Assembly (NCBI RefSeq): GCF_030651495.1
Contig: NZ_JAUSFI010000084.1
Location: 1-64,000, forward strand
DNA length: 64,000 nucleotides
From: Undibacterium sp.
Lineage (GTDB): Bacteria > Pseudomonadota > Gammaproteobacteria > Burkholderiales > Burkholderiaceae_D
Direction of reading: 5' to 3'
A model generated the notes under the pieces. That model was not told the origin of the DNA, ran no database searches, and was given only the letters and a program-made list of their open reading frames with translations. The position numbers were made by a program, and so were the translations under genes. This document shows positions 8,312-18,300 of the stretch, piece by piece (positions within the stretch are counted from its first letter, which is position 1; each line of letters opens with the position of its first letter).

Positions 8312-9526
8312 TCATTTTTGCGCCGACTGCATGCGCAGCATCAGGCCCTGAAGCCGGCGGAAAGTCCAGGTCAGTGGCCGTAGCGGGAAATACAGCCATT
8401 GCAGGCGGGCGGGTAGTTTCAGCAAGCGGTAGTCGTTGACGCTGGGATACAGCATCGCCATCAAATGCCATAGCAAGGCTTTCCATTGGCGTGCATTGCG
8501 CATGCGATGCATCCAGGTGAGTATCATGATGCGCGCGGGTGGTTTTTCCATCCACAGTTCCGGTCCCTGCTGGAACAGTTGGATCAGATGCCACTGGCTA
8601 GGACTGAGTTTGAAGCGAAAACCCTGGCGTATCTCTGCGCTCAGATGCAAGCCGCAGTATTGTTGCGCCAGCAATAGCCCTTGCTGTAGCGCCAGTCCGG
8701 CATCCAATTGGTGCGCCCGCTGCCAGACGCGTGGCCAGTCGAATGTATGGGTCTCGATCAGATTGGGTAAGTCAAACAGCCATTTCAGGCGCGCCCAGCC
8801 ATGGGTAACCCCGTGCAGGCAAAGATAGATCAGCAAGTCTTCATGATGCAGGCCCGCCAGGCTGGTCTGCGCCAGCGCTGCGGTGCGCAAGGTCGGCCAG
8901 TCGAGTGGAAATTCGTAGGGGTTGTAGCTGGCACGCCAGTGCAATTCGAGTGGGGGAAAATTCTGCCGTAACAAAAGGCCGTGATGATGGCCGTAAGATA
9001 AGAGTCGTCGATTTTCCAAGGCCAATATGTCGTGCTCCGCAATGGCCCAGCCCTGGGCTTTTAAGACCGCCAGCACGCGCTCAAAATGGAGCGGGGCCAC
9101 AACGATATCAATATCCCCGACGTGACGGACGGCCAGATCGCCGTAGGCCCTGATAGCCACATCCATGCCCTTGAGCCCTAGCAGCTGCAAACCCTGGGTG
9201 GCCCGTCCCAGTTCATGGCTGGCATGCAGTGCGCGCAGCGCCCTTTGCGTATTGCGCTGCTGCTGTAACTCTAGCGCTGGCAGCAACTCTTCGGCAAAGC
9301 TGCCCGGCGGGTGGGCTTTGACATTGCGGTATAACAGGGGGGAAATCTTGTGCCTTATTCCCAGCGCCAGTAGCTTACCGGTATCGAGCCCGGCCGCCGC
9401 CAATGCGCGCTGACGCACGACATGCGCCGCCGATGGTTGCGGCCGGCAGCAGGTGAGTAAAAATTCAAATTCAGGACCGTTGCCGGTGACGTCAAGCGGG
9501 CAGGTCAAGCTAGGTTGGGTGTTCAT
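8312..9526 (-). CDS. Nucleotidyltransferase family protein in the lasso-peptide cluster
   Basis: About 404 residues. The N-terminal half contains GLKG (near 119) followed by RHVGDIDIVV, the G-S/K and D-x-D signature of the uncharacterised NTase family NTP_transf_5 (PF14907). The C-terminal half is helical with several W/H-rich segments. The ATG at 9526 is 10 bp after the APS kinase stop; a TTG two codons earlier is an alternative. It is the last gene of the leftward lasso operon (cyclase, ATP-grasp, APS kinase, NTase). Homologous NTases are recalled next to kinase-containing lasso clusters of the paeninodin type, but their reaction is not established. It could attach a nucleotide to the peptide or to its phosphate; that is inference. 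Confidence 0.75.
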   Translation of the reverse strand: MNTQPSLTCPLDVTGNGPEFEFLLTCCRPQPSAAHVVRQRALAAAGLDTGKLLALGIRHKISPLLYRNVKAHPPGSFAEELLPALELQQQRNTQRALRALHASHELGRATQGLQLLGLKGMDVAIRAYGDLAVRHVGDIDIVVAPLHFERVLAVLKAQGWAIAEHDILALENRRLLSYGHHHGLLLRQNFPPLELHWRASYNPYEFPLDWPTLRTAALAQTSLAGLHHEDLLIYLCLHGVTHGWARLKWLFDLPNLIETHTFDWPRVWQRAHQLDAGLALQQGLLLAQQYCGLHLSAEIRQGFRFKLSPSQWHLIQLFQQGPELWMEKPPARIMILTWMHRMRNARQWKALLWHLMAMLYPSVNDYRLLKLPARLQWLYFPLRPLTWTFRRLQGLMLRMQSAQK

Positions 9527-9536
9527 CAGCAAGCGT

Positions 9537-10091
9537 TTAGGATAAGTGTGGGACGGCTGCGGCCGAGAGCGGCGATGCGGCCGCTGTGGCCGCCAGGATC
9601 AGTTGCACCGCCAGGCTTAATTCTAAGGTTTCGGTATCGATGCGGAGAAAGGCCTGGGCGGGGATTTCATATGGGGCAGAAATACCGGTGAAATCGGCCA
9701 GCTCGCCGCTGCGCGCGCGCCGGTACAGGCCTTTGGGGTCGCGTTGTTCGCATACCTGCAAGCGCGTCGCGACGTGGATTTCGCGCCAGGCGCTGCCGAT
9801 AATCGCATGCGCGACCGCACGGTCGGTCTGCAAGGGCGAGATGGCGGCGACTAAAACGGTCAGGCCGGCCTGATTCATGAGCGCCGCGACTTCGGCAATC
9901 CGGCGGATATTTTCGTGCCGGTCGGCTGCCGAATAGCCGAGGTCGGCGCATAAGCCCTGGCGTAACTGGTCGCCATCGAGTATCACGCAGGCAGAGCCGG
10001 ACTTTTGTAACTGCAGCGCGGTGGCTTGCGCCAGGGTCGATTTGCCGGCGCCGGATAGGCCGGTAAACCACAGTGTTTTGACGCTTTTCAT
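9537..10091 (-). CDS. cysC: Adenylylsulfate (APS) kinase
   Basis: 184 residues from the ATG at 10091, which has an AAGAGAG box; an upstream in-frame start exists but overlaps the previous gene. It phosphorylates APS at the 3' position to make PAPS. All CysC marks are present: the P-loop GLSGAGKST (11-19), LDGDQLRQGL, LGYSAADRHENIRR, DPKGLYRRARSGE and FTGISAPYEIP. Such a gene would normally sit with cysND. Here it lies in the lasso operon, opposite a PAPS-dependent sulfotransferase, so it most likely supplies the sulfate donor for peptide sulfation. APS itself must come from an ATP sulfurylase encoded elsewhere. Confidence 0.93.
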   Translation of the reverse strand: MKSVKTLWFTGLSGAGKSTLAQATALQLQKSGSACVILDGDQLRQGLCADLGYSAADRHENIRRIAEVAALMNQAGLTVLVAAISPLQTDRAVAHAIIGSAWREIHVATRLQVCEQRDPKGLYRRARSGELADFTGISAPYEIPAQAFLRIDTETLELSLAVQLILAATAAASPLSAAAVPHLS

Positions 10092-10107
10092 TGCTAGTCT
10101 CTCTTCT

Positions 10108-11355
10108 TCATTTTCTATTCTCGTTGAGTAAGCCGCCACGTTCCGCTTGCAGCGCATGCAGACGCCAGCTGGAATTGCCTTCCAACAGCAAGGCGCCAGC
10201 CTCGCTCAAGACAAAATCCCAGGCCACGCTATACAAGTCGCCAGCCAGCATCTGGTGTGCCAGCATGGCCGAGCGCAGCGCCTGCTGCCAATGGGGTAAG
10301 TTGGCCAGTGCAGCGTGTTGCCATACTGTCGCCAGCGCGCTGTCCGTTGGCCCAGAGACCCCGCTCGCCAGCAGCGCGCCGCTAGCCAAATCAATCGGCT
10401 GCATGCGGTGTTGCTGCGCCTGAAGCGGGATTTCCAGACAGGCAAAATCGACCACAACGTTGTCTTCGCTGCGCTTGGTCAATACCCGTAAAGTGATCGC
10501 TACGCTGGCCAGCGTAGCTAGCGCGCTGGCATTGGCGACACAGGGCTGTATCAGGTAATCTTGCTGCCGGCTGGCGCGCTGCCATTGCTGCCGGGGCGAC
10601 AGGCGCGCTGATGCAGGCTGGCCATACACCTGCCAGTCAGCTGCGCCGTTCTTGCCGGCATACACATAAAAACAATCTTGCCCGGCACTGCCATAGCGAG
10701 GTTTTAAAAATAAGGGCAGGGCGAATCTGTCCCAGTCTGGCGCTGGACTGTTGCGCGGCAGCATGCAATAGGTCGTGGCGACGGCAATGCCGGCACTGGC
10801 CAAGGTTTGACTGCATTGCCATTTATCGGCCAGCATTTCCCGACTTGCCTGCTTATTTGATTGCTTATTTAGCGGCTTATTTGCTGGTGCGCTTGCCGGC
10901 AGCTGGCAGGCATCACGCCAGCGATGAAATGCACCGGTTTCGTGCTCACTTACATAATCCCATGGCTGCCGCTGCGGCAAGTAAAGCTGGTATTGGTAAA
11001 TCATCCGTGGCGGCAGGCAACGCCCCAGTGCCAGGCGCAGGGCATAGCGCCATTGCGCAAACTGACTCAGGCCGGTCGCTGCCTGCACCGCCGGCCCATG
11101 CTGTTTGACCGTGCGCCAGCTGGCGCGCCAGCCCAGCCAGACTATCCAGCGCAAATACAGCCAACTCTGCTGGATCAGCCATAAGGGGCGCGGCAGGGCT
11201 GTCGGCGCATGCCACCAAAAATGCCGGTGTAAGCGGACCTGCCGACTCTGCCCCGGCCACAAGTAGCGCCAGCTGATCAAGCCATGCGGCAAATGGCGCT
11301 GCCAGAATTCACGGCGCAGAAACGTCAGGATTTTGCTGCCGGACAAGGCGTTCAT
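10108..11355 (-). CDS. ATP-grasp protein (sugar-transfer-associated type) in the lasso cluster
   Basis: 415 residues. The N-terminal 110 residues are rich in W and R with hydrophobic stretches. An ATP-grasp fold follows: FLKPRYGSAGQDCF is the ATP lysine and glycine-rich loop (near 230), YLIQPCV the adenine-contact strand, and AWDFVLSEAGALLLEGN the metal-binding strand ending in E-G-N. This resembles PF14397 (sugar-transfer-associated ATP-grasp). ATP-grasp enzymes form amide or ester bonds through acyl phosphates. Its ATG overlaps the cyclase stop by 4 bp, so the two are translationally coupled. A low-complexity NKPLNKQSNKQ insert sits in the middle. The substrate is unknown; addition of an amino acid or other group to the peptide is a guess. 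Confidence 0.7.
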   Translation of the reverse strand: MNALSGSKILTFLRREFWQRHLPHGLISWRYLWPGQSRQVRLHRHFWWHAPTALPRPLWLIQQSWLYLRWIVWLGWRASWRTVKQHGPAVQAATGLSQFAQWRYALRLALGRCLPPRMIYQYQLYLPQRQPWDYVSEHETGAFHRWRDACQLPASAPANKPLNKQSNKQASREMLADKWQCSQTLASAGIAVATTYCMLPRNSPAPDWDRFALPLFLKPRYGSAGQDCFYVYAGKNGAADWQVYGQPASARLSPRQQWQRASRQQDYLIQPCVANASALATLASVAITLRVLTKRSEDNVVVDFACLEIPLQAQQHRMQPIDLASGALLASGVSGPTDSALATVWQHAALANLPHWQQALRSAMLAHQMLAGDLYSVAWDFVLSEAGALLLEGNSSWRLHALQAERGGLLNENRK

Positions 11356-13205
11356 TGCGGTCGCACCAGCCAGCGGTTAAGCCAATGTAATTGTTTGCCT
11401 GTCCGTTGCAGCATCATCATGGCGGCATCGAGTTCTTCACCTTGCATTTTCGGCAACTGGTGCGCGGCTTGCCTGATCCTGGCAGTATCGAGCAAGGTGT
11501 CCAGCTCAGGCCCGACGCGTTCCAGTTCAGTGAGTAATTGGCTGGCGATCGCTTGCAGCTGTTCTGGCGCTCGTCGTTGCAAGGAATAGGTATCCATCCC
11601 CATGTCCTTGCTGACTTTCCATTGCACCATGGCAGGCGCCATCCCTTCCATGGCGCGGCGGTGCAAATATCGCCCCATGCCATTCGGGCCATATTTTTCT
11701 AATGAGGGGGTCGACAGGTATTGCTGGATCAGGCGTACATCGAGCAAGGGCCAGCGGTAATCGACGCCAGACATGGCGGCGACCAGCGAACAGTTTTCCA
11801 GTCGGGTCGGAATGAAGCTGGCGCTGAGGCGGTTTTTTAGCGCAAAATCATTGATGCGCCGATACGGTGCGTCGTAACTCGCGGTTGCCAAATATTCTGT
11901 TTGCAAGTCCAGCTGCGCCACCACCTCGTTGCGCAGCGGCTGATACGACCAGCGCTGTTGCCAGGCCTTCATGAAGCGCGGGTTGAATGTGGCTGGCCGT
12001 TGCTGCAATAGCCGCTTGCCCAGGCGCAGGCTGCGCATGGCCGGATTGCCGGGCAACACATGCCAGAGATTGCGCCAATCGCGCTGGTCAATTAATTCAT
12101 GAATCAAATGATAGCCGGGATTGGTCACGACTTCGTCGCCGCCAAAGCCGGACAATAGGCTAGTCACGCCGAAGCGTTGACACAGCTGGTAAAACGGCAA
12201 ATGTCCCGGGCCATTGCCGTGCTCGGCGGGGTACGCCAAGACGTCCAGGATACGGTCGATATCGGCATCCGCCAATGTGGCAAACCGGGTAAAAATATGA
12301 TTATGCTGAATCTGGTGCATTTGGCTGGTCGCCAGAATATGGCTGGCTTCCTGCGGCAGTATCGCAAAGCCAAAAGTATGCAATCTGGCGCTGCCGGCGA
12401 GCTGGGCGGCGCAGCCCGTGACGGTGGCAGAATCGATACCGCCGCTGTTTTCACAGCCGATGTCTTGAGCCTTCTCCAAACGGCAGGCAATCGCCTGCTG
12501 TAAGCGCTCGCGGTACGCCGCGACCCAGCGCGGATCACGCTGTCTGCTGGCCGGCGCATCGTCTTGCCAGCTAAAGTACGAGCGTATTTGCAGGCTGTCG
12601 GAAGACAGCACGGCAACATGCCCGGGGGGCAGTTTCTTGATTTCGCGATACCCTGTTGCGCTATGGCTCATCGACAAATGCATTAAAAACCTGGCGGCCC
12701 AGTCCATGTCGCGTGTCGCGCTGCGCCCGGGCAAGGCCAGCAAGGCGGCCGGTGCCATGGATACCGCCAGCAAGTCCGCATCAAGCCGGTAATAGAGCGG
12801 CCGTACCCCGACCGGATCACGCGCCAGCATCACCGTCTGGCTGCGCGGGTCGTATAGGGCAAAGGCAAAATCCCCGATCAGGTGGCGCACACAATCGGTG
12901 TGCCAGCGATCATAGGCGGCCAGCAGTATTTGCATATCATCAACTGCGCCGAGTCCTAATTGCGCGGCCAGATCGTCGCGGTTATCGAGTCTCAGCCAGG
13001 CCAGCACACAGCGCCCGGTCACCGGGCAGTGATACGGCCGGCCAGCCTTGAGTGCAGTCGTGGCAGCGCCCGGAATCTGTACACAAAATCCGCGCGGCGC
13101 GGCGGCGTGACCGGGGTGCGGCAGCACGGGCTTGGAGTGCGTCTGCCATTGCGCTAAAAAATCGCGACTGTCGGGTACAACACGCTGGTACAGGAAAGCA
13201 AACAA
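11352..13205 (-). CDS. Lasso peptide cyclase (asparagine synthetase homologue, C protein)
   Basis: 617 residues. It adenylates the Glu/Asp side chain of the core peptide and closes the macrolactam with the N-terminal amine. The N-terminal third has the class II glutamine-amidotransferase fold (RHLIGDFAFALYD, LARDPVGVRPLYY) but lacks the catalytic Cys2, as lasso cyclases do. The C-terminal synthetase domain carries the PP-loop SGGIDS at 254-259 and the later LLSGFGGDEVV. The start is TTG at 13205 preceded by TGAGG; an in-frame TGA lies just upstream, so no longer start is possible. First gene of the leftward operon, divergent from the kinase gene. The identification rests on this architecture plus B1, B2, the transporter and the precursor nearby. 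Confidence 0.9.
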   Translation of the reverse strand: MFAFLYQRVVPDSRDFLAQWQTHSKPVLPHPGHAAAPRGFCVQIPGAATTALKAGRPYHCPVTGRCVLAWLRLDNRDDLAAQLGLGAVDDMQILLAAYDRWHTDCVRHLIGDFAFALYDPRSQTVMLARDPVGVRPLYYRLDADLLAVSMAPAALLALPGRSATRDMDWAARFLMHLSMSHSATGYREIKKLPPGHVAVLSSDSLQIRSYFSWQDDAPASRQRDPRWVAAYRERLQQAIACRLEKAQDIGCENSGGIDSATVTGCAAQLAGSARLHTFGFAILPQEASHILATSQMHQIQHNHIFTRFATLADADIDRILDVLAYPAEHGNGPGHLPFYQLCQRFGVTSLLSGFGGDEVVTNPGYHLIHELIDQRDWRNLWHVLPGNPAMRSLRLGKRLLQQRPATFNPRFMKAWQQRWSYQPLRNEVVAQLDLQTEYLATASYDAPYRRINDFALKNRLSASFIPTRLENCSLVAAMSGVDYRWPLLDVRLIQQYLSTPSLEKYGPNGMGRYLHRRAMEGMAPAMVQWKVSKDMGMDTYSLQRRAPEQLQAIASQLLTELERVGPELDTLLDTARIRQAAHQLPKMQGEELDAAMMMLQRTGKQLHWLNRWLVRPQ

Positions 13206-13506
13206 GTTTAAGCCTCAAAGAAGATGACTGCACCGATGGATCAAATGAAGACGCGTTTGTTGAGGCGCATGGTGATCCAGCTTGTGATCAAGCGTCATAC
13301 GCAATTAAAAAGAGGATTCTAAACCATCATGCATCGCGGCCCTGTGATTAAATTACGTCTACACACTGCCAGTATTGTATCGCCCAAAAAAGAAAGAAAA
13401 ATACCACATCAAGGGCGAAGTCAAGCAAGGAATAATCGGCGGTTAGCCTGAAAATTATCGCTATAATGCCAAAAAAGCTGATTTCACTGACCAAACTCCT
13501 TATTTC
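13206..13506. promoter_or_regulatory. Divergent promoter region of the lasso cluster
   Basis: These 301 bp separate the two divergent lasso operons. TATAAT at 13462-13467, 39 bp before the kinase ATG, is a good -10 box for the rightward operon, but no strong -35 partner is seen. The rest is moderately AT-rich without a convincing gene or a clear palindromic operator. Confidence 0.5.
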
Positions 13507-14403
13507 ATGGCATATCACTATCAGCTCTACCAGTTTGGCATCTCCAGCGAACTTCCTTTGCCAGAATTGCAACCCGCTTCAGATATTGAGCCTGAGGTTC
13601 GCATCCGTTATGCAAGTATTTGCTTGCCGTTGCAGGACGAAGCGCGTCAACTAGGCCCTTATCTGTGGGCCAGCGCGACGGCATTCTATTTGCGGGTGCC
13701 GGACGTGGCCGATTTCCTGATTCAGAACGGTAATGAAATCATCATTGCGCCCCATCCGGGGATAGACGAAGACAGTATCCGGGTGTTTTTGCTGGGCTCG
13801 GCCTTTGGTGCCCTGATGTTCCAGCGCCGGCATCTGGTCTTGCATGGCAATGCGGTGCAAGTCGGCGATGCCTGTCTGGTCTGTGTCGGTCCGTCTGGTG
13901 CTGGTAAATCGACCCTGGCGGCGGCACTGATGCAACGCGGGCACAAGTTGCTGGCCGATGACGTAGTGCCGGTGAACGCACAATGCCAAGCCTTGCCGGG
14001 CTTTCCGCGGATTAAATTGTGGCAAGACAGCGCCGATCATTTGCAGATCGCTACCGCGGCCTTGGCGCCGATCCGTCCCGGGCTGGAAAAATTCAATTTG
14101 CCGACGATGAGTGACATGGCACCGCAGCCTCTTGCCATCCGCTGGGTGTATATCCTGAGCGCGCACAATGAGGATACTTTTTCGTTTGAGCCGATTCATG
14201 GCATGGCGCGCTTTCAGTCGCTGCGCAATAACACTTACCGCCTGCGTTTTCTGGAAGGCATGCAAATGCAGGCAGAGCACTTGCAGCTGTGCGCCCGCTT
14301 ATCGAACCAGATTCGGCTGGTGCGCATTACGCGTCCCAGGACTGGCTTTGCGCTGGATGAACTGGCGGAGCGGATACTGGCCGATGCGGCGGCGCATCCA
14401 TGA
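13507..14403 (+). CDS. HPr kinase-like protein, predicted lasso peptide kinase (K protein)
   Basis: 298 residues resembling the C-terminal kinase domain of HPr kinase/phosphorylase: LVLHGNAV (His-Gly-Asn at 113-115), the P-loop GPSGAGKST (128-136) and LLADDVVPV (Asp151/152). The N-terminal 100 residues are a non-catalytic extension. HprK-like proteins in lasso clusters of the paeninodin type phosphorylate the C-terminal Ser of the precursor before maturation. The precursor here ends in Ser57, so the same reaction is plausible. The stop overlaps the sulfotransferase start by 4 bp (ATGA). First gene of the rightward operon. Phosphorylation is inferred from family and context. Confidence 0.85.
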   Translation: MAYHYQLYQFGISSELPLPELQPASDIEPEVRIRYASICLPLQDEARQLGPYLWASATAFYLRVPDVADFLIQNGNEIIIAPHPGIDEDSIRVFLLGSAFGALMFQRRHLVLHGNAVQVGDACLVCVGPSGAGKSTLAAALMQRGHKLLADDVVPVNAQCQALPGFPRIKLWQDSADHLQIATAALAPIRPGLEKFNLPTMSDMAPQPLAIRWVYILSAHNEDTFSFEPIHGMARFQSLRNNTYRLRFLEGMQMQAEHLQLCARLSNQIRLVRITRPRTGFALDELAERILADAAAHP

Positions 14404-15281
14404 GCGGGATTTACTGGCTGGCATCTTACCCAAAATCCGGCAATACCTGGTTGCGGGTTTTTTTAGCGAATCTGCAGCAAGCGCAAGACTATGCCGCCGT
14501 ACCGGCCGATATCAATGCACTGGAAACCGGCGAAATCGCCAGCAGCCGTGGTTGGCTCGATGAATTGCTGGGCTTTGACAGCGCCGATTTACGGCCGGAT
14601 GAAATTGAAAAACTGCGCCCTACGGTGTATCGCTGGACCGCACAGCAAGAAAGAACACAGGTCGGTTATCACAAGATCCATGACGCCTTCACGTATTTGC
14701 CCGGTGGTGAGCCGATGATCAGCCTGTCCGCGACCCTGGGCGCACTGTATATCATCCGCAATCCGCTGGATGTGGCGATCTCGGCCTCGCATCATTGGGG
14801 CTGTACGCTAGAGCGCGCGATTGCCAATCTGGCGCAAGACAATTTCACGCTGGCCCAATCCCGGCGCGGCTTGTCCAGCCAGGTGGCGCAGCGTTTGCTA
14901 AACTGGTCGCAGCATGTGCTGAGCTGGGCCGATGCACCGGGGCTAGCTTGTTGCGTGATCCGCTATGAAGACATGCTGGACGAGGCGTTGCCAACGTTTA
15001 CCAGGGCGACAGAGTTTTTGGGCTTGCCGGCAGATCAGGCGGCCATCGGCCAGGCGATAGCGCACAGCGATTTCGAGGTATTGTCGGCGCAGGAGCAGGC
15101 GCAAGGTTTTAAAGAACGCTCGCATAAAGCCAGCCGGTTTTTTCGCAGCGGCCGGGCCGGGGGCTGGCAAGACATACTTAGCTCCAGCCAGGTCGAGCAG
15201 ATCGTCTCGGTGCACGGCGCAGTAATGGCAAGATTTGGCTATCTGGATCAGCAAGGCTCACCGTATTTGAATAAGGAGTAA
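14400..15281 (+). CDS. PAPS-dependent sulfotransferase, predicted lasso peptide tailoring enzyme
   Basis: 293 residues of the Sulfotransfer_1 fold. The 5'-phosphosulfate loop is YPKSGNTWLR (10-19), the 3'-phosphate site is IIRNPLDVAISASHH (near 118-132), and FFRSGRAGGWQDIL near the C-terminus is the R-K-G-x-x-G-D-W-type motif that caps PAPS. These are the marks of cytosolic-type enzymes that sulfate hydroxyl groups. Translation is coupled to the kinase upstream, and the PqqD-like B1 gene follows after 4 bp. The predicted core has no Tyr, so a Ser or Thr hydroxyl, or a group added by another enzyme of the cluster, would be the acceptor. The donor would come from the APS kinase of the divergent operon. 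Confidence 0.9.
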   Translation: MSGIYWLASYPKSGNTWLRVFLANLQQAQDYAAVPADINALETGEIASSRGWLDELLGFDSADLRPDEIEKLRPTVYRWTAQQERTQVGYHKIHDAFTYLPGGEPMISLSATLGALYIIRNPLDVAISASHHWGCTLERAIANLAQDNFTLAQSRRGLSSQVAQRLLNWSQHVLSWADAPGLACCVIRYEDMLDEALPTFTRATEFLGLPADQAAIGQAIAHSDFEVLSAQEQAQGFKERSHKASRFFRSGRAGGWQDILSSSQVEQIVSVHGAVMARFGYLDQQGSPYLNKE

Positions 15282-15285
15282 CACC

Positions 15286-15573
15286 ATGTCGGAAACTAGT
15301 TTAGATAGACAGTGCAAGCTGGCGCGTCACCCGGATTTGCTGGCGGTGCCGATGGACGGTGACCTGGTGATGATGAGCATCAGCCAGGGCAGTTATTATG
15401 GGATTAATCCGGTCGGCGTGCAAATTTGGCAGGCGCTGGAGTCGCCGCAATCGCTGGCCACCCTGTGCGAGCTGGTGACGGCTGAGTTTGACGTCAGCGC
15501 CGCTCAGTGCGAGCAAGATATGCAAGTATTTATCCGGCAAATGCTCAATGCCAAGGTACTCGAACTGGCATGA
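15286..15573 (+). CDS. PqqD-like lasso peptide leader-binding protein (B1, RRE)
   Basis: 95 residues of the PqqD/RRE fold (winged helix that binds RiPP leader peptides). Visible signatures are DGDLVMMSISQGSYYGIN, the V-x-x-x-x-x-x-Y-x-x-N hairpin, then GVQIWQALESPQSLATLCE, as in lasso B1 proteins. It would bind the YQAPQL motif in the precursor leader and bring it to the B2 protease. It is encoded immediately before B2, and its TGA (15571-15573) overlaps the B2 ATG (15570-15572). A GGAG box lies 7 bp before the ATG. Confidence 0.9.
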   Translation: MSETSLDRQCKLARHPDLLAVPMDGDLVMMSISQGSYYGINPVGVQIWQALESPQSLATLCELVTAEFDVSAAQCEQDMQVFIRQMLNAKVLELA

Positions 15574-16058
15574 GCGTGGCGCAGATCGCCGTCAGGAAGC
15601 TCGCTAGCTTTTGGCGCTTGCCGGGATTCATCAAGCTGGCGCTGCTGCCAACCTGGGTATTGCTCGGGCTGGCACGTCTGCTGGTGCTGTGTTTGCCATT
15701 CCAGGCGCTGGCGCCCCGGCTCGGGCAGCATGTCGGCACCTGCGTCTTTATTCCACTGATTCCTGTGCACCTGCTAGGCCGCGCGCGCCTGATTGCGCGC
15801 CTGATCCGGACCACTGCGCAGTATTGCCCGTGGCGGGCCAATTGCTTTGCGCAGGCGATTGCGGCCAGAGTCTGGCTGAAGGTTTTCGGTATTCCGTATG
15901 CCCTGTATTTTGGCTTATGCAAGAACGCGACGCAGCAGTTAAGCGCACACGCCTGGGTCTGTAGCGGACCGGTGTTTGTGAGCGGCGGCAACAGCTTTGC
16001 CCAATTTACCGTGGTGGGAACCTTCGTGTCCGACGCTGCCATGATGGGCTCGGCATGA
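15570..16058 (+). CDS. Lasso peptide leader peptidase (B2, transglutaminase-fold)
   Basis: 162 residues from the ATG that overlaps the B1 stop; longer upstream readings would overlap B1. The family is the transglutaminase-like cysteine protease PF13471. Cys92 in PWRANCFAQA is the nucleophile and His127 in SAHAWV the base. The third acidic residue usual in the triad is not obvious (VFVSGGNSF follows). The N-terminal 60 residues are hydrophobic (FIKLALLPTWVLLGLARLLVLCL), suggesting membrane association. It cuts the leader from the core and frees Gly1 for cyclisation. It belongs to the rightward lasso operon between B1 and the ABC exporter. Confidence 0.9.
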   Translation: MSVAQIAVRKLASFWRLPGFIKLALLPTWVLLGLARLLVLCLPFQALAPRLGQHVGTCVFIPLIPVHLLGRARLIARLIRTTAQYCPWRANCFAQAIAARVWLKVFGIPYALYFGLCKNATQQLSAHAWVCSGPVFVSGGNSFAQFTVVGTFVSDAAMMGSA

Positions 16059-16084
16059 TGGGATTGACATTATGGGATTGACAT
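16058..16084. repeat. Two direct 13-bp repeats at the B2/exporter junction
   Basis: ATGGGATTGACAT occurs at 16058-16070 and again at 16072-16084. The second copy ends in the ATG of the exporter gene, so the duplication changed the spacing between B2 and its partner. Probably a small slippage duplication. Confidence 0.75.
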
Positions 16085-17873
16085 GATTCAGCCTAACATC
16101 CGCGCATCGGCACAGGCTTTTTTCCGCCTGCTGAGAGAGCAGCCGCGCCGTCCCTTGCTGCTGGTTTTGGCGGGCATGTTACTGGGCAGCTTAAGCGAAG
16201 GTTTTGGCATCACGCTGCTGGTGCCGCTGCTGGAGTATTTGCAGGGCGCTGCCGTGCCCCAGCAGCATAGTGGCTGGGTGGCGCCAGCCGCTCTGGCACT
16301 GGGATGGGCGGGGCAGCCCGGCTTAGTGCTCTTGCTGTTGTTTGTCGTGCTGCAAGGACTCAGGATAGGCTTGCAATACCACCGTGAAATCATGGCCAGC
16401 CGCTTGCAGTTTGATCTGGTCGATCGCCTGCGCGAGCGTTGCTTTAGCGCGGTGTTGCAGAGTGAATGGCGCTGGCTGTCGCAGCGCGATAATGCCCAGT
16501 GTGCCAATCTCTTGCTCACCGATATGAACCGGATCGGCACCGGGCTGAATTTTTTCTTGCAGATATGCAGCGCCAGCGCGCTGCTGCTGGCCTACACCGT
16601 GGCCGCACTCTACCTGTCGTGGGCGATGAGCTTGCTGGTGCTGGCAATGGGCTTGCTGTTTGCCGTGAGCGAAAATGGCTTGCGCCGCGCCGCCCTGGCG
16701 CTTGGGCAGCGCATCGGCCAGACGTCGCAGGTCTTGCATCATGCCGTCAAAGAAAGCCTGGCCGGCATGAAGCTGGCCAAGATACTCGGCAATGAACAGC
16801 GCCACATCGATTTATTCCAGCAATCTATGCAAAGCTTTCGCCAGCAGCAGCTAGGATTTCAGCGCAGTTCTGGCCGCTCCCGGCTGCGTATGCAGTTGGG
16901 TAGCCTGCTCATCCTGGTGGCCTTGCTGTATGCCGGCCTGCGTTTTTGGCAGCTGCCGGTGGCCAGGCTGGCAACGCTGATTTTTATTTTTTCCAGACTG
17001 ATGCCGATGGCTTCGCAATTGCAGCAGCATATCCATCATTGGCTGCATGCGCTGCCGGCGCTGGATAACGCCAATCGCCTGCTGGCCGAATGCCGGCAGG
17101 CGCAAGAGCCGGTCTTGCCGGCTGGCCTGGCAGCGCTGCCTTTGCAGCATGAGATGGTGTTGCAGCAGGTGGATTTTGCTTATCCGGGACGCACCCAGCC
17201 AGCCCTCAAGGGTATCAACTTGCATCTGGCGGCGCGCACCACGACCGCGATTATCGGCGCCTCGGGTGCCGGCAAAAGCACGCTGGCCGACATGCTGATG
17301 GGTTTGCTCAGCCCGGACCGTGGCCAGCTCTGCATCGATGGCCAGATTTTAGATGCCGCTGCGCGCATGCACTGGCGCCGCTCAGTCGCGTATGTGCCGC
17401 AAGAGACTATTTTGTTTAACGACAGCATACGGAATAATTTACATTGGGCCGTGCCAGAGGCCAGCGAGGCGCAATTGTGGCAGGCGCTGGAGCGGGCTGC
17501 CGCAGGCTTTGTGCGCCAGCTGCCGCAGGGCTTGGATACCGTGGTCGGCGAGCAGGGCGTGCGCCTGTCCGGCGGCGAACGCCAGCGCATTGCCCTGGCG
17601 CGCGCCTTGCTGGGCCGGCCGTCCCTGCTGATACTCGATGAAGCCACCAGTGCGCTCGATAGCGACAACGAAGAGCGCATCCGCCAGGCCATCGTCAACC
17701 TGCACGGCGATTTAACCGTCGTCGCCATCGGCCACCGTATGGCGACTTTGCAACATGCCGATCAGGTCGTGCTGATGGAGGCGGGGCAGATCATCAGGCA
17801 AGGCGACTGGCATGCCGTGCAAACGACCCCGCATCCAAATCGGCCAGCTGTGGTATTGGCCAACACCGCATGA
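16083..17873 (+). CDS. Lasso peptide ABC exporter (D protein), fused membrane and ATPase domains
   Basis: 596 residues, an exporter half-transporter: six membrane segments in the first 310 residues and a nucleotide-binding domain after about 340. Walker A is GASGAGKST, the Q-loop VPQETILFND, the signature [15 protein letters not shown], Walker B LLILDEATSALD and the switch His IGHRMATL. It would work as a homodimer exporting the mature peptide and giving self-immunity. The gene follows B2 after 24 bp and is followed by the precursor gene. Unlike typical lasso clusters, the precursor is not the first gene, so its expression may rely partly on a promoter between 17874 and 18004. Confidence 0.9.
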   Translation: MIQPNIRASAQAFFRLLREQPRRPLLLVLAGMLLGSLSEGFGITLLVPLLEYLQGAAVPQQHSGWVAPAALALGWAGQPGLVLLLLFVVLQGLRIGLQYHREIMASRLQFDLVDRLRERCFSAVLQSEWRWLSQRDNAQCANLLLTDMNRIGTGLNFFLQICSASALLLAYTVAALYLSWAMSLLVLAMGLLFAVSENGLRRAALALGQRIGQTSQVLHHAVKESLAGMKLAKILGNEQRHIDLFQQSMQSFRQQQLGFQRSSGRSRLRMQLGSLLILVALLYAGLRFWQLPVARLATLIFIFSRLMPMASQLQQHIHHWLHALPALDNANRLLAECRQAQEPVLPAGLAALPLQHEMVLQQVDFAYPGRTQPALKGINLHLAARTTTAIIGASGAGKSTLADMLMGLLSPDRGQLCIDGQILDAAARMHWRRSVAYVPQETILFNDSIRNNLHWAVPEASEAQLWQALERAAAGFVRQLPQGLDTVVGEQGVRLSGGERQRIALARALLGRPSLLILDEATSALDSDNEERIRQAIVNLHGDLTVVAIGHRMATLQHADQVVLMEAGQIIRQGDWHAVQTTPHPNRPAVVLANTA

Positions 17874-18004
17874 CGACAGCACCAATTTCTGTGCAATAAT
17901 TCAGACGATGTTGAATGCTGGAAATTAATAGAAGTTAACAGCGGCAACCGATCCGGTAGCAATGCCGGCCCCAAAAAATAAAACCCTTTCAGCAGAGTGA
18001 GATA
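17874..18004. promoter_or_regulatory. Leader region upstream of the precursor gene
   Basis: These 131 bp between the exporter and the precursor gene are AT-richer than the genes and end in GAGTGAG before the precursor ATG. An own promoter for the precursor would fit here, as precursors need higher expression, but no clear -35/-10 pair is visible. Confidence 0.35.
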
Positions 18005-18178
18005 ATGGATACCCAGCAAGCTATCAATGCGATCAGCCCCCAAGTCACGCCGGCGTCCGGCGCTACCCCGTCGCGCCGCCCGTATCAGGCACCGCAGCTG
18101 ATCCCTTTATTGCAGAAGGATACTGAGGGTAAAATTCCCTTCACCTCTGAATTTAGCACTTTGGGGAATCATTCTTAA
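18005..18178 (+). CDS. Lasso peptide precursor (A)
   Basis: 57 residues, starting at ATG 18005 with GAGTGAG upstream and ending in TAA. The leader (1-41) has the B1-recognition motif YQAPQL (27-32, Y-x-x-P-x-L) and Thr40 at position -2, as in nearly all lasso leaders. Cleavage before Gly42 gives the predicted core GKIPFTSEFSTLGNHS (16 residues). Glu at core position 8 would close an 8-residue macrolactam with Gly1, leaving the tail FSTLGNHS. The last residue, Ser57, is the type of site phosphorylated in paeninodin-like peptides. Phe9 and Leu12 could help hold the thread. It is the last gene before a strong terminator. Cleavage and ring are predictions from family rules. Confidence 0.87.
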   Translation: MDTQQAINAISPQVTPASGATPSRRPYQAPQLIPLLQKDTEGKIPFTSEFSTLGNHS

Positions 18179-18268
18179 GCCCCTTGCGTCACTAGCTGTT
18201 ATCTGCACGGGATACCACGTGTAGCCGTTTTGTCCAGAATGCCAGGCAATCGGACAATTAAAGAAAAA

Positions 18269-18300
18269 AGCCCAATTCTTTTAAGAACTGGGCTTTTTTT
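18269..18300 (+). terminator. Rho-independent terminator of the rightward lasso operon
   Basis: AGCCCAATTCTT (18269-18280) pairs with AAGAACTGGGCT (18283-18294) with one mismatch, followed by a run of T. It lies 90 bp after the precursor stop. Confidence 0.88.

Follow-up and report, generated by a model that had tools for sequence, protein, structure and literature searches.

What would be made by a lasso-peptide gene cluster that carries a kinase, a sulfotransferase and an enzyme for activating sulfate? This question is raised by ten open reading frames (ORFs) at positions 8312-18178 of the window, by which we mean the whole stretch of 64,000 nucleotides analysed here (Undibacterium sp., contig NZ_JAUSFI010000084.1, positions 1 to 64,000). 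An earlier note, made from the letters of the window alone, had described lasso genes with five accessory enzymes, had considered the combination unusual and had proposed a dedicated supply of 3'-phosphoadenosine 5'-phosphosulfate (PAPS). By its gene content the region is a full set of lasso-peptide biosynthetic genes to which a sulfation arm has been joined. We consider it rather probable that the product is a lasso peptide that is phosphorylated and then sulfated, with the sulfotransferase (ST) acting at or after a C-terminal serine modified by the HprK-like kinase (K).

All of the components that had been named were recovered in two divergent gene runs separated by a gap of approximately 300 bp: the cyclase (C), B1, B2, the exporter (D) and a short precursor (A), together with K, ST, the adenosine 5'-phosphosulfate (APS) kinase CysC, a nucleotidyltransferase (N) and an ATP-grasp protein. 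Nine of the ten ORFs had Pfam or NCBIfam support; the precursor, for which there is no model, was identified by pattern. B2, the sole PF13471 match in the window genome, scored 75.9 bits with NF033537, above the curated cut-off of 33. The best NCBIfam match of C was the lasso cyclase model NF033535 (248 bits, under the 525-bit exception cut-off), B1 reached 69.2 bits with NF033536 (under the 80-bit exception cut-off), and CysC passed the cut-off of TIGR00455 (193.6 vs 138.7 bits). The sulfation arm consists of CysC and of an ST with PAPS-binding signatures. No near match to the cluster DNA was found in plasmid records.

The earlier note had also proposed looking among genome neighbours for lasso clusters with a sulfotransferase and an APS kinase. 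One such cluster, L030, was found in a genome of the same genus (G698) and has the same gene content, comprising K, ST, B1, B2, D, C, ATP-grasp, CysC and N as well as a precursor whose last residue is Ser. The nine enzymes and transporters of the window all have homologs there, each with an expect value (E) of 7e-24 or better. Because the B2 model is above its curated cut-off and G698 holds homologs of all nine together with its own precursor, the lasso cluster is not a product of chance. Best-segment identities between the two clusters were 72% for K, 65% for ST, 65% for CysC, 61% for B1, 61% for D, 58% for B2, 47% for N, 43% for ATP-grasp and only 27% for C (window 11352-13205 vs L030 10888-12672). 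The two clusters also place the precursor gene differently, behind D in the window but in L030 between K and C, and their flanking genes are not the same. From the sequence comparison, the cyclase may have been swapped along with its precursor, with the tailoring genes retained. In each of the two clusters with CysC, its gene is flanked by those of ATP-grasp and N, and the ATP-grasp homolog adjoins CysC in L030 too.

To survey relatives, the window ST was used as a query against genomes of the order (300 genomes, 5 with a match), the class (369, 4), the genus (43, 3) and the phylum (398, 21), the own genome being included in each. It was also used against 61 genomes around G129 (1 match, G129 itself), plasmid records (20 with a match) and species genomes (4 loci), and K was used against 60 relatives (3 with a match, own genome included). 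Two of the four species-genome loci were used, L022 and L023 being left out as weak matches. Of the 20 plasmid records, 4 were used and 16, with 24-26% identity, were left out. Lasso and tailoring genes at the loci were scored with profiles built for this analysis. Including the window, 39 loci were obtained, of which 31 had K beside ST (K-ST loci) and 8, from 7 genomes, had ST alone. ST lay directly 3' of K in 30 of the 31, the order being reversed only in L113. C was present in 26 of the K-ST loci, B1 in 25, B2 in 14, a D-type ABC gene in 11, N in 12, ATP-grasp in 8, CysC in 2, Tail-Collar in 14 and GNAT in 9; all of these are minimum counts, since contig ends truncate many of the loci. At the eight ST-only loci, no C, B1, B2, N, ATP-grasp, CysC, Tail-Collar or GNAT gene was found, and an ABC gene was present in 3. 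The motif K.H[DE] was found in the ST of 28 of the 31 K-ST loci (by this pattern it is absent from L033, L036 and L037) and in none of the eight ST-only loci.

The 398-genome phylum sample pointed in the same direction: K was found in 28 genomes and ST in 21, with both in 14, K only in 14 and ST only in 7, where K was taken at a threshold of 1e-15 and ST at 1e-25, at most 5 first-look candidates for K were considered per genome, the K counts are lower bounds, and the 14 K-only genomes were counted by the presence of K and not by its surroundings. ST without K was located outside lasso surroundings in this sample, and K also occurred without ST; in the plasmid records, K was present in 14, four of them shared with the ST list. 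Taken together, these distributions suggest that this ST seems to need K, while K needs no ST. Such a relation fits an ST that works on the product of K or on the same residue. The relation may not hold for other ST families, as the window ST served as the query.

The precursor, ORF 18005-18178, has the leader motif YQAPQL, which follows the lasso pattern YxxPxL, as well as Thr at position -2 of the leader and an acidic residue at core position 8, within the positions 7-9 at which the pattern allows Asp or Glu. The predicted core is GKIPFTSEFSTLGNHS, with a ring from G1 to E8, no Tyr, and Ser16 as its last residue. A C-terminal Ser is the substrate feature of the paeninodin type. We searched short ORFs lying within 8 kb of K or ST and clear of scored genes with one fixed pattern. 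Of the 59 matching short ORFs in K-ST loci, 24 ended in Ser, including one chance-like match (L100 11801-11980) that leaves the locus count unaffected; in the reversed-sequence control, which was not filtered for gene overlap as the real set was, only 6 of 77 matches did (Fisher p 6e-6), and the pattern together with a C-terminal Ser occurred in 6 of 5765 short ORFs of the reversed loci. A Ser-ending match was present in 19 of the 31 K-ST loci. Five further probable precursors ending in Ser were picked by eye (L036, L104, L107, L111 and L112; the last four show no clear Thr at position -2), and a possible one at L096 611-766 was left out of the count. The earlier note had held that its reading would fail if related clusters lacked a precursor. 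That is not what was found: probable precursors were present in 25 of the 31 loci, and 24 of these 25 end in Ser. The K-ST cores are otherwise very diverse, and by eye nearly all of them have just one hydroxyl position in common, that of the C-terminal Ser.

The tailoring enzymes were then examined for catalytic features. ST carries the motifs SYPKSGNTW, KIHD and RNPLDVAIS, which we take to be the 5'-phosphosulfate-binding signature, the catalytic His and the 3'-phosphate-binding signature, and its residues K12, H94, R120 and S128 were invariant across 23 sequences. The ST model (mean predicted local distance difference test score, pLDDT, 92) had as its best fold match in the PDB the enzyme Teg12 with 3'-phosphoadenosine 5'-phosphate (PAP; E 4e-13), in a structure crystallised with PAP and teicoplanin aglycone, and by sequence the closest PDB chains were Teg12 and Teg14. 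By these signatures, the putative catalytic His and the matches to PAP-bound folds, ST is predicted to be a PAPS-dependent sulfotransferase. In N, KG and DxD were invariant in an alignment of 10 sequences; the model (pLDDT 74.5) matched ANT(2'')-Ia and LnuA best, weakly (E 4e-3 to 2e-2), with no match under E 0.001 in the fold search. Neither N nor the ATP-grasp protein had a solved relative by sequence at E 0.01. K has the residues H/G/G/G/K/S/D/D, that is, the His, the Gly-rich loop, Lys-Ser and Asp-Asp of lasso-tailoring kinases, and all eight stand at the spacing of BsfK (PMC10368454; here and below, statements about cited papers refer to the portions of them that were accessible). Membership of K in the HprK-related kinase A system (TIGR04352) was considered and rejected, the score being 42.8 bits vs a cut-off of 200. 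The fold of N leans towards nucleotidyl transfer, while hexose transfer was seen in the work on pseudomycoidin, according to the accessible reviews. As a separate observation, a second, longer sulfotransferase-like protein with the motif SFPKCGRTW is encoded at two K-ST lasso loci (L095 18581-19948 and L097 604-2217), and its gene adjoins the ATP-grasp gene in L095.

Where would the PAPS come from? CysC matched PDB CysN/CysC chains, known APS kinases, at E 7e-43. Among 42 genus genomes searched at E 1e-20, an APS kinase was found in 30 and none was detected in 12; with the sample restricted to the 34 genomes of 90% completeness or more and 5% contamination or less, none was detected in 11. G698, a single contig of 97% completeness, had one detected APS kinase, which is that of its lasso cluster, while the window genome had three, one of them in the cluster. 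In a tree of 25 sequences, the cluster CysC proteins of the window and G698 were sisters (support 97/95); the tree took 25 rows from 32 loci, 7 loci being lost on filtering, and covers 25 of the 42 APS-kinase matches. The CysH proteins of both genomes carry CC..RK..PL, which we take to be an APS-reductase signature, so that assimilation should not need PAPS. Given that the only APS kinase detected in G698 is in the cluster and that CysH is of the APS-reductase type, PAPS from the cluster CysC is probably made for sulfation, as read from the sequences. A part in sulfate assimilation is disfavoured for CysC by the CysH signature and by the genus genomes in which no APS kinase was detected (12 of 42). 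The claim of a dedicated supply thus holds in part: it is well supported for G698 and just plausible for the window genome. As a separate observation, other CysC genes of the genus adjoin, by eye, a different sulfotransferase-like gene with the motif GLPR[SA]GSTLL (L064, L066, L067, L068 and L018 6403-8428). These neighbours are perhaps separate sulfation modules, and they again point to PAPS for sulfation.

On the preferred reading, B1 would bind the leader and K would phosphorylate the precursor, most likely at the C-terminal Ser16. CysC would convert housekeeping APS to PAPS, and ST would move sulfate from PAPS onto the peptide. B2 would cut off the leader after Thr-Glu, C would form the ring from Gly1 to Glu8 with the tail threaded through it, and export would fall to D. 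The phosphate may receive a nucleotidyl or sugar group from N, and the ATP-grasp enzyme is a candidate for adding a further group. The gene set, the catalytic signatures, the form of the precursor, the recurring K-ST pair and the C-terminal Ser can be read from the DNA, and from them we infer the reactions and their order. Sulfation of the product appears likely on this basis, and the sulfate would sit on the C-terminal Ser or on a group added by K or N. That it sits solely on a sugar added by N was rejected as a general explanation, N being present in 12 of the 31 K-ST loci, a count that truncated contigs and split clusters weaken.

Apart from the unfiltered reversed-sequence control, several points weigh against this reading. 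First, hydroxyls are also offered by T6, S7, S10 and T11 of the window core, and BsfK modifies Ser3 and not the C-terminus (PMC10368454), though residue 3 of the window core is Ile. Second, the rule of the C-terminal Ser has gaps: no precursor was counted in 6 of the 31 K-ST loci (L021, L032, L034, L093, L094 and L096), 3 of 21 pattern matches at the eight ST-only loci also end in Ser, L106 has K and ST with two adjoining precursors (14054-14212 and 14378-14575) that end in Val and Pro, and the Ser-ending precursor-like peptide L036 6806-7033 has a predicted core without Asp or Glu and thus no usual ring acceptor. Third, the window genome has the two further APS kinases, and CysC was not found in 29 of the 31 K-ST loci, many of them truncated, so that ST usually draws PAPS from elsewhere. 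As an observation on L106 itself, two kinase genes lie near its precursors.

The strongest alternative is that ST needs no action of K and sulfates a Ser or Thr in the ring or loop, so that the C-terminus would bear the phosphate and another residue the sulfate. The four internal hydroxyls of the window core would be available for this, and by eye the other pattern-matched K-ST cores carry further Ser and Thr residues too; however, again by eye, no hydroxyl besides the C-terminal Ser is common to these cores, and ST without K was met solely outside lasso surroundings. We give this alternative about one chance in four. Sulfation might also be a leaving-group step, in which ST activates a Ser or Thr hydroxyl, for example that of the C-terminal Ser, for elimination, so that the final product is free of sulfate. 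In the curacin pathway, sulfation by an ST is followed by decarboxylative elimination, and the fold matches of the window ST include retinol dehydratase and LGS1, two PAPS-fold enzymes tied to elimination or ring formation. However, its best match is Teg12, which we take to be a sulfating enzyme of glycopeptide antibiotics, and no lyase or decarboxylase was found by Pfam among the ten cluster ORFs; we regard this course as improbable. Least probable of all, by a little, is that CysC and ST serve another acceptor, such as a surface glycan or small molecule, with the lasso genes as mere neighbours: the pairing of other genus CysC genes with other sulfotransferase-like genes would allow it, but a lasso-type cyclase is present in 26 of the 31 K-ST loci vs none of the 8 ST-only loci, and the CysC gene, where present, has the ATP-grasp gene on one side and N on the other (two clusters).

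Beyond the window, the phosphorylated and sulfated C-terminal Ser can be extended, tentatively, to a widespread proteobacterial branch of lasso peptides with a composite acidic tail, in which ST, together with N at loci that have it, would build on a C-terminal Ser phosphorylated by K. Such a tail might, though we would not count on it, be a sulfated phospho-Ser, a sulfated sugar- or nucleotide-phosphate or even a phosphosulfate, with the window genus adding its own APS kinase. As an observation in its own right, Tail-Collar (PF07484) proteins lie within approximately 10 kb of the lasso genes at 14 of the 31 K-ST loci (L014, L015, L016, L031, L032, L033, L096, L099, L100, L104, L107, L111, L112 and L113) vs 0 of 8 ST-only loci. 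They often stand three in tandem, several loci also have a GNAT gene, and the three of L031 were checked against Pfam. It is conceivable, if doubtful, that these proteins beside the pathway are functional partners of the peptide. Among the matches listed, no paper joined Tail-Collar and lasso terms.

The coordinates of the cluster are collected in the table. Overlaps of 4 bp join C to ATP-grasp, K to ST, and B1 to B2 at its likely start, and the precursor gene starts 131 bp past D. A promoter-like match lies upstream of the precursor gene at 17873-17900, such sites being near chance number in the region. The hairpin 3' of the precursor gene was detected on the minus strand, and its plus-strand reading also leads into a T run; with 7 terminator-like sites in the region vs 6.5 in shuffles, it stands out for its length alone. 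By eye, the flanks look ordinary: an OsmC-like gene and an acyltransferase border the cluster at one end, and a regulator of Lrp type together with GlmS at the opposite end.

Table. Features of the lasso-peptide cluster in the window, with strand and basis of assignment.
Feature	Coordinates	Strand	Basis
N, PF14907 nucleotidyltransferase	8312-9532	-	159 bits
CysC, APS kinase	9537-10091	-	PF01583 186.8 bits; ORF opens 10157, likely start 10091
ATP-grasp protein (PF14397)	10108-11355	-	68.3 bits vs cut-off 31.4
C, Asn-synthase-like macrolactam cyclase	11352-13205	-	PF00733 105.5 bits, over cut-off
K, HprK-like kinase	13507-14403	+	PF07475 40.2 bits
ST, PAPS sulfotransferase	14400-15281	+	PF00685 76.6 bits
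B1, PqqD-like leader-binding protein (RRE)	15286-15573	+	PF05402 60.5 bits, over cut-off
B2, leader peptidase (Transglut_core3)	15570-16058	+	PF13471 71.2 bits; ORF opens 15507, likely start 15570
D, ABC exporter	16083-17873	+	PF00664 and PF00005
A, precursor, 57 aa	18005-18178	+	ORF, lasso pattern, reversed-sequence control
Terminator-like hairpin 3' of precursor gene	18264-18299		16 pairs then T run

How unusual is this set of genes? HPr kinase and sulfotransferase were noted in 2014 as additional putative genes in some lasso clusters, whether in the same cluster being unstated (PMC4289311), and lasso clusters with HPr kinase and/or sulfotransferase were described by Zhu 2016c (cited in PMC8498205). 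These are the same two enzyme classes as in the window; no sulfated product and no APS kinase is mentioned for them in the accessible text. In PMC10040529, a run of neighbouring family numbers comprises B2, a nucleotidyltransferase, two sulfotransferases, PqqD and Asn synthase. Because the K-ST pair recurs in 31 loci and both classes were noted in 2014, it is mainly the APS kinase, found in 2 of the 31, that makes the set unusual, and the earlier claim of an unusual combination stands for that enzyme and not for the pair. No sulfated lasso peptide was found in the literature searched, which left most subscription journals outside and whose matches were partly examined, nor in the accessible parts of PMC13352647, and no paper in this literature paired 'lasso peptide' with 'sulfate kinase'. 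A sulfated lasso peptide of this kind thus seems not yet to have been isolated, and sulfation, if true, would be a new lasso-peptide modification as far as the searches reach. The window would offer a compact test system, with a short Tyr-free core, an ST that seemingly depends on K and a source of PAPS within the cluster, in which it would be seen whether the two groups, phosphate and sulfate, occupy the same residue, the C-terminal Ser. In addition, the K-ST pairing provides a simple rule for finding further clusters, and in G698 an APS kinase seems, rather cleanly, to have been retained for natural-product synthesis and nothing else.

Among known systems, RaxX (PMC6637879) and RaxST with RaxP and RaxQ (PMC4216712) resemble the window in combining a ribosomal peptide, a PAPS-dependent sulfating enzyme and PAPS-making genes; however, RaxX is sulfated on Tyr and is not a lasso peptide, and Tyr sulfation of the RaxX/PSY type was rejected for the present product because its predicted core has no Tyr. 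The bsf cluster of Bradymonas sediminis (BsfK, BsfN; PMC10368454) shares the kinase motif spacing and a nucleotidyltransferase gene with the window, but BsfK acts on Ser3, where the window core has Ile3, and no ST is among the bsf genes named in the accessible text. Pseudomycoidin (PMC8498205) combines a kinase (psmK) with an annotated nucleotidyltransferase (psmN), as the window combines K and N, and one or two hexoses are added to its phosphorylated peptide in vivo. ST and CysC are not mentioned there in the accessible portion, and the likeness of PsmN to a nucleotidyltransferase is one of annotation, while the window N (PF14907) weakly resembles ANT(2'')/LnuA in fold. The C-terminal Ser is the residue modified by lasso kinases (PMC8498205), and the clusters of paeninodin and of the ThcoK and SyanK peptides, like the window, have the lasso core genes and an HprK-like kinase, which in their case acts on that residue (PMC8498205, PMC9266682). 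To these clusters, for which the accessible text names no ST or APS kinase, the window adds ST, CysC, N and the ATP-grasp protein.

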